From a virus: a stretch of DNA of 24,417 nucleotides. Made by a program: the position numbers and the translations under genes. The notes beneath the pieces were generated by a model. The model saw nothing but the letters and a program-made list of their open reading frames with translations. It searched no databases and was not told where the DNA came from. Location of the stretch: positions 1 through 24,417 of the IMG/VR virus record IMGVR_UViG_3300042466_000307; one strand, given 5' to 3'. Shown piece after piece: positions 9,219-13,405 of this stretch; the first letter of the stretch is position 1; each line of letters opens with the position of its first letter.

Positions 9219-9524
9219 ATGTTAGAAACAAAGGCAAAATCGTTTTTTGCGTCCAACCCGGACGCAAAGGGCGTTTGTCTAACAAGCGACGGCACGTTGT
9301 TTGATTTAGACAATTTCCGATTTGCGGACGCGCATTCACAAACGTTGGAAAATAGAGAAATTCAAATTTTCGCAAAAAATGAAAACGACATCGACGAACC
9401 GATCAAACGTTTGTTTTTTGAAGGTTCAATTTGGATTTTGAAATTGATCGTTGGCGAAATAATTGAAGCAATCGAAGAAAGACGCGCGAAAAAAAGCGCA
9501 CCAAAAAAGGCGAGAAACGATTAA
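9219..9524 (+). CDS. Hypothetical protein between capsid and sheath
   Basis: This 101-residue protein has no family I recognise. The first half is mixed (FFASNPDAKGVCLTSDGTLF, DLDNFRFADAHSQTL). A helical stretch FFEGSIWILKLIVGEIIEAI follows, and the end is strongly basic (EERRAKKSAPKKARND). The LTSDGTLF-D segment looks like a short beta-hairpin. It starts after an A-rich leader, 12 bases past the capsid stop, and ends 13 bases before the sheath gene, so it belongs to the same operon. A structural or assembly role in head-tail joining is plausible by position only. Confidence 0.6.
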   Translation: MLETKAKSFFASNPDAKGVCLTSDGTLFDLDNFRFADAHSQTLENREIQIFAKNENDIDEPIKRLFFEGSIWILKLIVGEIIEAIEERRAKKSAPKKARND

Positions 9525-10730: not shown

Positions 10731-11144
10731 ATGTTACCATTAATTAACGGACGCGCATACGATTTCGCGCAAATAATCGTCACAATTTTAGGGGTTCCGG
10801 TTGCGTCGGTTTCGGCGATTGATTATGAAGAAACGCAAGAAAAAAAGAACAATTACGGGGCGGGAAATCGCCCGGTTTCAAGGGGGGCGGGCGCGATCGA
10901 ATGCACCGCGTCAATTGAAATGTCAATGAATGACATCGAAGCAATTCGCAACGTTGCGCCAAATGGTTCATTGTTGCAAGTTCCGGCGTTTGACATTACG
11001 ATTTTCTTTGGAAATGCGCAATCGCCAAAAACACACGTTTTGAAAAATTGTGAATTTACAAAAGACGGCGTTTCGGGATCACAAGGCGACACCGATTTGA
11101 AATACAAATTTGATTTGTTGCCGTCGCATATTGTATGGAAATAA
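10731..11144 (+). CDS. Tail tube protein
   Basis: The 137-residue protein follows the sheath and should form the inner tube. It begins MLPLINGRAYDFAQIIVTIL and has alternating beta strands (VASVSAIDYEETQEKKNNYG, IECTASIEMSMNDIEA, FDITIFFGNAQSPKTHVL, KNCEFTKDGVSGSQGDTDL). FTKDGVSGSQGDTDL-YK resembles the closing strands of P2 FII / Mu M tube proteins. A strong terminator lies 27 bases downstream. Identified by position, length and strand pattern rather than a catalytic motif. Confidence 0.78.
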   Translation: MLPLINGRAYDFAQIIVTILGVPVASVSAIDYEETQEKKNNYGAGNRPVSRGAGAIECTASIEMSMNDIEAIRNVAPNGSLLQVPAFDITIFFGNAQSPKTHVLKNCEFTKDGVSGSQGDTDLKYKFDLLPSHIVWK

Positions 11145-11170
11145 AAAAATTCAAACAATAAAATTTGATA

Positions 11171-11201
11171 AAAACCCGGACAATATCGTTCGGGTTTTTT
11201 T
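11171..11201 (+). terminator. Rho-independent terminator after the tail tube gene
   Basis: AAAACCCGGAC pairs with GTTCGGGTTTT (11171-11181 with 11188-11198), with one G-U pair and a 6-base loop, followed by further T residues. It is a good intrinsic terminator between the tube and the tail assembly chaperone. The AT-rich 40 bases before 11244 may hold a promoter, but I see no exact match to TAnnTTTG at the right spacing. Confidence 0.85.
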
Positions 11202-11243: not shown

Positions 11244-11540
11244 ATGGAAACAAACGACACAAAAGAAATGATCCCAAACGGCGCAAAATACGTTTTGGAA
11301 ATTGAAGGAAAAAAATGTTATTTAAAAGCGATTACGCGTCCGGTAATGGAGCAAGCGTTGGGATTGATTATGCCGTTGACGGGATCGCCAAAAATGATAA
11401 CGGCGGGCGAAATGATTTTGAATTCGTGTTGGATTTCGGGCGACGATGAAATCAAAACCGATCCGGAATTGTATGTTGACGCGTGTTTGAACGCGGTTCA
11501 ATTAATTGAGCGCAAAGCGTCAAGCCTAAAAAAGTTATAA
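11244..11540 (+). CDS. Tail assembly chaperone, short (zero-frame) product
   Basis: The 98-residue protein sits between tube and tape measure, where phages encode the tail assembly chaperone. It includes VLEIEGKKCYLKAITRPVME and a mostly helical C-terminal half (VDACLNAVQLIERKASSLKK). The gene ends at TAA 11538-11540, immediately downstream of a -1 slippery heptamer at 11528-11534. Most ribosomes should make this short form. It binds the tape measure during tail assembly (established for lambda G and P2 E; inferred here). It follows a terminator, so it may start a separate transcript. Confidence 0.85.
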   Translation: METNDTKEMIPNGAKYVLEIEGKKCYLKAITRPVMEQALGLIMPLTGSPKMITAGEMILNSCWISGDDEIKTDPELYVDACLNAVQLIERKASSLKKL

Positions 11541-11725
11541 GCCGGACGGCAATACGTCCGGGCGATCGCGACGATGAAATTCGAAAAATGTCCGCGTTGA
11601 TCCGGTTTCATTTTAAAATTGATCCGGATCCGTTGGACGATTATCAATTTGCGCGGTTGTGGAATGATTTAAAATATTGTTTGGATTATGAAGCCAAACG
11701 ATTTGGAATGCAAGAAGAAAACTAA
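11244..11725 (+). CDS. Tail assembly chaperone, -1 frameshift fusion product
   Basis: Ribosomes slipping back one base at A AAA AAG (11528-11534) avoid the zero-frame TAA and read 63 more codons, ending at TAA 11723-11725. The fusion has 160 residues. The extension contains RDDEIRKMSALIRFHFKIDP, DPLDDYQFARLWNDLKYC and LDYEAKRFGMQEEN. It uses the phage's typical codons, so it is real coding sequence. It has no good start of its own except a late ATG at 11588. This is the G/GT (lambda) or E/E' (P2) arrangement: the long form joins chaperone to a tape-measure-binding domain. The tape measure gene starts 13 bases later. Confidence 0.85.
11528..11561 (+). other. Programmed -1 ribosomal frameshift signal
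   Basis: The zero frame reads CTA AAA AAG TTA TAA, giving the slippery heptamer A AAA AAG (11528-11534), the same as in E. coli dnaX. A 7-base spacer containing the zero-frame stop follows. Then CCGGACG (11542-11548) pairs perfectly with CGTCCGG (11555-11561) around a 6-base loop. Spacer length, GC-rich stem and stop position all fit a stimulated -1 frameshift. Confidence 0.88.
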
Positions 11726-11737
11726 AATAAAACAAAT

Positions 11738-13405
11738 ATGTCGGACAATCGCGAAACGTATATAATTGAATTGATTGATCGAAATTTCGGATCGTTAAAA
11801 GCGATTGCGGATCAAATGGATCATTTGCGAAATAAGGTTGACGGGTTGTCCGATAATTTGGGCGACGGATCAAACGGTTTAGCGGGAAAATTGGGCGGAT
11901 TGACGCGGATTGTTGGTTGGACGGCGTTAGCGGGGGGCGTTGCATTGGCCGGGCGTGAAATTTATCAGTTAGGCGCAAATATGGAACAAACACGCGTTGC
12001 GTTTGGGACGTTGTTAGGTAGTCAAAAAGAAGCAAATCAATTGATTGAACAAATGCAACAATTCGGCGCGGTCACACCGTTTGAAACAACAGAATTGTTG
12101 AACGCGTCGCGAATGTTACTATCCGCGGGAATTGGCGCAAAAGATATTCAAGAAAATTTAAGAATGATCGGCGACGTTGCGTCCGGAACATCAGTTCCAA
12201 TTGAAGAATTGGCGCAAATATTCCAAAAAGCAACAAACAAAGGAAAATTGCAAGCCGAAGAATTGAACCAAATGTCGGAACGTGGTATTCCGATAATGTC
12301 CGAATTGGCGAAAATGTTCGGTCGTTCAAAGGAAGAAGTTTATAAAATGGCGGAACAAGGATCCATTTCATCAAACGTAATGAACCAGGCGTTTATCAAT
12401 ATGACATCACAAGGCGGAATTTATTTCGATATGATGAACAAACAATCCCAAACAACCGCCGGCCGAATGTCAACCGTTATTGACAATTTGAAAAATTTAG
12501 GGATTAAATTATTTGATTTATTCCAACCCGTGATCAATGGTTTCATTTCATTGGCGGGCGCATTATTAGAAAATAAAGCATTATTAAAAGACATTGCAAT
12601 TGTTGTCGGTATTTTGACGGGCGCGTTTGCCCTTTACAAAATTGGCGTTGGTTTAGCAACATTATTCACGGGCGGATTTTCGACGGCGTTTGCTACATTA
12701 AACGCGATAATGTATGCCAACCCAATTGGCGTGATCGTTGGCGCAATTGCGTTGTTGGTTGCCGGGGTTGTGATTGCAATCCGACATTTTGAAGAGTGGG
12801 GATCTGTTGTCCTTATGTTGTCCGGTCCGTTAGGTTTTATTATTAATATTATTCAAGCATTACGCCGAAATTGGGACGGATTAAAAGAAGCATTTTCAAC
12901 GGGCGGAATGATTGCGGGTTTCAAAAAATTGGGAATGGTTATAATTGATTCATTGTTATATCCAATTCAACAATTTTTAGGATTGTTGGCGAAAATCCCT
13001 GGTTTGGGAAGTATTGCCGGAAACGGGGCGGAATGGATTAAAAATATGCGAAAAAATTTGGGCGTTGCCGTTCCCGAAGAAACAAAAAAAACCGTCGAAG
13101 GAGTTAAACAAAAAACGCAAAAAGGAAAAATCCAAGGCGTTGACAATGCGACGTTGAAAAATATTGCGGAAACGCAATTGGACAACAAAAAGAAAACAAA
13201 ATTGAAGGGCGTGAAATCGGATTTGCAATCCGGAATTTCGGACATTTCAGCCGGTGCGCCAAAAGTTTTCAATATAAATATTGGATCATTGATAAAAGAA
13301 CAAAAATTCGAAACAAACAAAGATTTTTCGGATATGAAATCAATAATTCGATCCGAAGTTTCACGCCTTTTGTTGGGCGTTGTTAACGACGTGCAAACAA
13401 CATAA
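11738..13405 (+). CDS. Tail tape measure protein
   Basis: The 555-residue protein should set tail length and be ejected with DNA. The N-terminus is helical (LIDRNFGSLKAIADQMDHLR, then VDGLSDNLGDGSNGLAGKLG). Residues about 90-200 hold the conserved tape-measure region (FGTLLGSQKEANQLIEQMQQ, PFETTELLNASRMLLSAGI, SERGIPIMSELAKMFG). Several hydrophobic segments follow (e.g. DIAIVVGILTGAFALYKIGV; GVIVGAIALLVAGVVIAI). The C-terminus is lysine-rich with FNINIGSLIKEQKFETN and a terminal helix. Using about 1.5 angstrom per residue, the tail would be roughly 80 nm (inference). It directly follows the chaperone fusion, its expected partner. Confidence 0.88.
   Translation: MSDNRETYIIELIDRNFGSLKAIADQMDHLRNKVDGLSDNLGDGSNGLAGKLGGLTRIVGWTALAGGVALAGREIYQLGANMEQTRVAFGTLLGSQKEANQLIEQMQQFGAVTPFETTELLNASRMLLSAGIGAKDIQENLRMIGDVASGTSVPIEELAQIFQKATNKGKLQAEELNQMSERGIPIMSELAKMFGRSKEEVYKMAEQGSISSNVMNQAFINMTSQGGIYFDMMNKQSQTTAGRMSTVIDNLKNLGIKLFDLFQPVINGFISLAGALLENKALLKDIAIVVGILTGAFALYKIGVGLATLFTGGFSTAFATLNAIMYANPIGVIVGAIALLVAGVVIAIRHFEEWGSVVLMLSGPLGFIINIIQALRRNWDGLKEAFSTGGMIAGFKKLGMVIIDSLLYPIQQFLGLLAKIPGLGSIAGNGAEWIKNMRKNLGVAVPEETKKTVEGVKQKTQKGKIQGVDNATLKNIAETQLDNKKKTKLKGVKSDLQSGISDISAGAPKVFNINIGSLIKEQKFETNKDFSDMKSIIRSEVSRLLLGVVNDVQTT

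Follow-up and report, generated by a model that had tools for sequence, protein, structure and literature searches.

How many proteins does a phage make from a gene whose end is overlapped by a second open frame? In the 24,417-base IMG/VR virus record IMGVR_UViG_3300042466_000307, which we analyzed over its whole length and refer to as the window, a gene for a 98-residue protein ends inside an open frame that lies one base back and continues almost to the tape measure gene. The initial annotation read this arrangement as a programmed -1 frameshift in the tail assembly chaperone. Reading frames, gene position, predicted fold and comparative evidence support this view, and we conclude that the gene at 11244-11540 very probably encodes a tail assembly chaperone (TAC) which is made in two forms by programmed -1 frameshifting. 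The slippage itself, its efficiency, its stimulation by a stem and the partner proteins are what we infer.

Gene context and zero-frame protein

Profile searches identified a Mu-type portal and gp36, a DUF2586 sheath and a TMP_3 tape measure in the window, with the gene order sheath-tube-TAC-tape measure. The chaperone gene is thus flanked by the tail tube gene on its 5' side and the tape measure gene on its 3' side (Table 1), and among the relatives with enough flanking sequence 85 of 100 carry an ORF of 250 aa or more immediately 3' of the chaperone locus. Between the tube and chaperone genes, at 11170-11199, there is a terminator-like hairpin of 12 pairs with a T tail, given which the two genes may be under separate control; it is a weak signal, with one such hairpin found and 1.4 expected from shuffles.

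The zero-frame product matches phrog_19076 (E 2.7e-12), a family that is itself of unknown function and that was matched by 64 of 64 relatives. In the profile search no Pfam family was found for the chaperone, and both the chaperone and the extension gave scattered chance matches only. The AF2 model of the zero-frame product has a pLDDT of 92.7. Comparison of this model with the PDB returned only four chains at Z 2 or more, including 3fgx (Z 7.6 over 85 residues), YqbN (3klu, Z 4.2) and the HK97 tail assembly chaperone (2ob9, Z 3.1), and values of Z < 8 can reflect a common arrangement. The structure list from BFVD includes viral models named tail assembly chaperone, with weak E-values. We regard the resemblance of the predicted fold to TACs as supportive and as specific.

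Slip site and reading frames in the window

The zero frame runs from ATG 11244 to CTA (11526) AAA (11529) AAG (11532) TTA TAA (11538-40), so that A_AAA_AAG stands in the phase of a slippery heptamer. The -1 frame has no stop from 11510 until TAA 11723-11725, which leaves 63 codons after the slip; the two frames overlap by 28 nt (11510-11537), the heptamer lies inside this overlap, and the predicted fusion has 97+63 = 160 residues. The heptamer, spacer, stem, loop and fusion length given in the initial annotation all proved correct to the base.

Table 1. Features of the frameshift locus and its neighbors in the window
Feature	Position	Strand	Basis or remark
Tail tube protein	10731..11144	+	phrog_4579, tail protein
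Zero-frame product, 98 aa, tail assembly chaperone (gpG-like)	11244..11540	+	ORF; phrog_19076; AF2 fold; gene position
Upstream TGA of -1 frame	11507..11509	+	Shift confined between this TGA and 11538
Slippery heptamer A_AAA_AAG	11528..11534	+	Sequence, phase checked
-1 frame extension (T-like domain), 63 codons + TAA 11723-11725	11534..11725	+	Open frame; homologous -1 extension in relatives; pS/pN; AF2
7-nt spacer TTATAAG, includes zero-frame stop 11538-11540	11535..11541	+	Sequence
Perfect 7-bp stem, 6-nt loop; probable downstream stimulator	11542..11561	+	Folding; arms identical in L002
In-frame ATG within extension, possible 45-aa product; not conserved	11588..11590	+	ATA in L017
Tape measure protein, TMP_3	11738..13405	+	PF20155 E 4.8e-24; phrog_9959 E 5.2e-51

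The main plus-strand genes of the window contain four in-phase copies of A_AAA_AAG in 7552 codons, and the copy at 11528-11534 is the only one at a stop that also has a long -1 run. Lys is encoded by AAG in 46 of 530 cases in these genes. Another in-phase copy, at 9503-9509, belongs to a small ORF between capsid and sheath (9219-9524) and stands six codons ahead of its stop; the -1 frame of this ORF stays open for about 20 codons past that stop. Since the AT-rich composition makes A runs common (14 in-phase A7 runs in the window), one could suppose that the whole arrangement is a chance coincidence, a sequencing error or a decaying gene, and composition is the sole point in favor of this idea. 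The same layout is found in more than 100 distinct contigs and genomes and the extension is under purifying selection. The comparative data already refute this explanation, to which we give practically no credence.

Relatives and the -1 frame extension

Relatives were drawn from IMG/VR, one-per-species genomes and annotated phages, giving 129 stretches including the window. All matches in the genome collection with a named host belong to Bacteroidota; those phages that carry a name are Winoviridae, from Flavobacterium and Winogradskyella. With iterated profiles we detected the chaperone in 127 stretches, the extension in 127 and both in 126, and in 125 of these 126 loci the homologous extension lies in the -1 frame relative to the chaperone. 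The sole exception is L106, a metagenome-assembled contig in which the extension stands in the +1/-2 frame (around 3018) despite a G_GTA_AAG site; a one-base indel or decay is the likely cause, assembly error or a decayed prophage being among the options. L125 (near 2458-2570) has an ORF that the chaperone profile did not match; about ten consecutive A stand at its end, ahead of the extension, and it is possibly a divergent chaperone or a variant that uses transcriptional slippage.

Between the window and its closest relative, L002, the extension shows pS 0.41 and pN 0.11 in the -1 frame, with third positions making up 19 of the 31 differences, and the pattern is reversed or flat in the other frames. 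Judged by these substitutions, the extension is evolving as a protein in the -1 frame only. Its AF2 model consists of two helices (pLDDT 90.3). The search of the PDB gave no convincing match: the hits were mostly helix-loop-helix proteins with Z of 4.2 or less, which we set aside as a generic arrangement, and apart from the family's own ORFs no convincing structural relative was found.

Could the extension instead be a separate small gene that starts at ATG 11588, the overlap being ordinary gene packing? The ATG is in frame and is also present in L002, L003, L004 and L018, and gp039 of Flavobacterium phage lotta8-1 has been annotated from the equivalent codon. However, L017 has ATA at this position, and within the first 25 codons of the 106 extensions 52 have no ATG and 27 have none of ATG, GTG and TTG, which means that the family as a whole cannot depend on a separate start. 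The 18 codons preceding ATG 11588 also argue against it: they are under weaker constraint (against L002 pS 0.30 and pN 0.12; ratio 0.83 when seven relatives are pooled), but they are still open, keep the hydrophobic pattern and align as protein among relatives. Moreover, L106 aside, the extension is always in the -1 frame relative to the TAC, and the selection on slip-site codons described below would serve no purpose for an independently started gene. We therefore consider a separate gene very unlikely, while a minor second product from this start could be made in addition.

The initial annotation had further stated that gene callers would miss the extension. This holds for the records of FPSV-S1 and Peternella_1, where it is unannotated, but not for lotta8-1 and pippi8-1, another Flavobacterium phage, where it appears as a separate hypothetical ORF of 42 aa.

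Slip sites across the family

In 44 of the 106 distinct loci A_AAA_AAG is located exactly one codon 5' of the zero-frame stop, and 8 have A_AAA_AAA there. Another 41 carry sites of the NNA_AAG type, nearly all one codon before the stop: G_GAA_AAG in 21, G_GTA_AAG in 13 and a few GTA, GCA and TTA variants. The A_AAG core is found at the same place in most relatives without A_AAA_AAG. In 23 loci the frames overlap by 13 nt or less and the site still falls within, which fixes the shift site independently of how the motif is defined. According to the initial annotation, relatives lacking both heptamer and stem would speak against the frameshift. Some of the G_GAA_AAG and G_GTA_AAG relatives do lack both, but they keep the A_AAG position and the -1 extension, so the reading is modified and not refuted.

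Codon choice at the site was compared with what the codon usage of the same locus would predict. In the A site AAG was used in 58 of 65 cases, where 21.4 were expected (z 10.4; the loci are related, so z-values here and below overstate independence). All P-site Lys codons are AAA (41/41) and all P-site Glu codons GAA (15/15). The last base of the codon before the P site is A for the heptamer class (Leu, 19/19 against 6.7 expected), and the NNA_AAG class has G there (Leu, 21/23 against 8.6 expected). Hence the latter class is better written G_GNA_AAG, a form in which the first base of P-site pairing is kept. With the slip residues left out of the tree, at least ten changes between the two site classes were counted, six or seven of them forced by well-supported branches.

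These data also bear on the possibility that RNA polymerase, and not the ribosome, slips on the A run. The window has six consecutive A and some relatives have longer runs, although longer runs are usually needed for efficient transcriptional slippage. About 40% of the distinct loci use NNA_AAG at the same place, usually with only 3-4 consecutive A, and the choice of AAG together with an upstream Shine-Dalgarno (SD)-like element are features of ribosomal frameshifting. Transcriptional slippage is thus a highly improbable explanation of the frame change.

The downstream stem

The stem of the window is formed by the arms CCGGACG (11542-11548) and CGTCCGG (11555-11561) around the loop GCAATA (11549-11554). 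It starts 7 nt past the heptamer, inside the range of 5-9 nt for structures at heptamer-type -1 frameshift sites. MFE folding returned exactly this stem, the hairpin alone having about -13 kcal/mol; the 81-nt region as a whole folds no better than shuffles (z -0.68), and the unusual part is the local stem only. An Rfam search of the window gave no match.

The window and L002 are the only stretches that have the stem in common, and both arms are unchanged between them while the flanks have changed. Across the 34-nt cassette a single difference was found, at loop position 11554. A check for conservation over the cassette had been proposed, and its outcome is positive but modest (1/34 against 68/449 differences elsewhere, Fisher p 0.03), other stretches of the gene being equally unchanged. 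In the next relatives, L003 and L004, the stem is absent in register. Hence the description of the locus as a complete cassette is right for the window, where the stem exists as described, but does not extend to the relatives beyond L002.

It might be argued that the frameshift is real and the stem without a role, A_AAA_AAG alone being enough. The loss in L003 and L004 fits this, as does the lack of stable structure in several other A_AAA_AAG relatives (L007, L009, L022). On the other hand, a perfect 7-bp stem with 5 or more G/C begins 5-9 nt downstream of 0.09% of window positions (any perfect 7-bp stem: 0.5%), the arms are unchanged in L002 in spite of the changed flanks, and structure downstream of A_AAA_AAG is enriched family-wide: the region 4-60 nt downstream folds better than shuffles in this class (mean z -0.99, Wilcoxon p 2.7e-6). 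We consider a stem without function rather unlikely. Because the stem is shared with L002 alone and is lost in register in L003 and L004, we see it as probably a local stimulator and not a defining part of the frameshift signal.

The same folding comparison in the G_GNA_AAG class gave no significant excess over shuffles (mean z -0.27, p 0.45). Stronger structure had been expected in this class, given the dependence of published A_AAG sites on strong stimulators, and the reverse was observed. In individual loci of the class (L035, L053, L101, L081) strong long-range stems follow the slip site, as where GTGATGCG pairs with CGCATCAC at a distance of about 20 nt.

An SD-like element upstream of the slip site

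A strict SD-like motif (AGGAG or GGAGG) precedes the slip site in 28 of the 106 distinct loci and is exactly 7 nt away in 26; L012, L034, L042, L044, L065, L105, L109 and others have AAGGAGG at this distance. No such element is present upstream of 11528 in the window. Compared with a synonymous-codon null the motif is in excess (19 of 64 non-redundant loci against 4.4 expected, z 8), and the excess fades within a few codons upstream. Its source is the Glu codon at -5, which is GAG in 25 of 34 cases against 11.1 expected (z 5.7); Glu codons elsewhere in the same stretch follow usage. The spacing is fixed because the K/A-E-A peptide is conserved, and 7 nt is also the spacing between SD and slip site in E. 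coli dnaX. Ribosomes of Bacteroidia largely ignore SD sequences, and those of F. johnsoniae occlude the anti-SD, yet the prfB frameshift keeps an SD-like element (PMC8710568). The element in the chaperone gene is therefore plausible as a second case.

From these sequence patterns we tentatively propose, at somewhat less than even confidence, that this Bacteroidota phage family uses two interchangeable sites, A_AAA_AAG and a half-matched G_GNA_AAG that would rely mainly on the tRNA-Lys slip from AAG to AAA, aided in a subset by SD-like pairing of the mRNA with 16S rRNA during elongation.

Discussion

In the mechanism that we envisage for the window, most ribosomes would terminate at 11538 and produce the 98-aa G-like protein. 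A minority would shift at A_AAA_AAG, where the P- and A-site tRNA-Lys could each move back by one base and pair with AAA/AAA. The 7-bp stem 7 nt downstream would assist in this, and the shifted ribosomes would translate the 63 further codons into a 160-aa GT-like fusion. If the parallel with lambda holds, the tape measure would be bound by the G part and the tail tube protein recruited by the small helical extension, so that the ratio of the two products would matter for tail assembly.

The programmed -1 frameshift of phage lambda G/GT was reportedly described by Levin in 1993 and by Xu, Hendrix and Duda in 2004; its heptamer is G_GGA_AAG. The initial annotation had likened the layout to that of lambda, and gene position before the tape measure, a short chaperone with a longer -1 fusion and a shift near the zero-frame stop all agree, although the slip site of the window is A_AAA_AAG and its phage is a contractile-tailed one of Bacteroidota. 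Lambda G/GT defines this kind of recoding, while Mu uses a -2 shift and other tailed phages -1 or +1 (PMC5009743). The window has a portal and gp36 of Mu type and the gene order that Mu shows around its chaperone gp41, but in the Bacteroidota family the two frames stand in a -1 relation, both in the window and across 125 of the 126 loci, with L106 as the exception, and sequence-profile comparison of the chaperone with gp41 showed no similarity. The contractile-tailed phage P2 has its E/E+E' genes (NC_001895) at the same position with a -1 shift; its slip site, however, is T_TTT_TTG, and no profile similarity to gpE was found either. E. coli dnaX has the same A_AAA_AAG followed by a stem as in the window, and an SD-like element as in the relatives (PMC5009743). 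It is, however, another gene, its shift truncates the product whereas here the tail is lengthened, and the window has no SD-like element.

Few bacterial slip sites are as efficient as A_AAA_AAG, and in E. coli A_AAG tetramers are functional when strong stimulators accompany them (PMC4066793). The G_GAA_AAG and G_GTA_AAG sites of the relatives share the A_AAG core with NNA_AAG sites at which a single tRNA-Lys re-pairs from AAG to AAA, such as CGA_AAG of IS1222 (PMC5009743). They differ in that they are used in a phage chaperone and nearly always have a G before the P-site codon, which may keep part of the P-site pairing.

A literature search covering open-licence papers brought up no earlier description of chaperone frameshifting in a Bacteroidota phage. 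Taken alone, the window is an ordinary, well-made example of the lambda G/GT kind of recoding. What is newer would be the family-level features suggested by the sequences, the interchange of sites and an SD-like stimulator in Bacteroidota. The findings provide a likely function for the unannotated family phrog_19076 together with its missing C-terminal half, and correct the annotation in Winoviridae and many Bacteroidota prophages. As such the family is a natural experiment in which one recoding event is combined with varied slip codons, with or without an SD-like element or stem, in hosts that occlude the anti-SD. SD pairing with elongating Bacteroidota ribosomes beyond prfB thereby becomes directly testable in the chaperone family.
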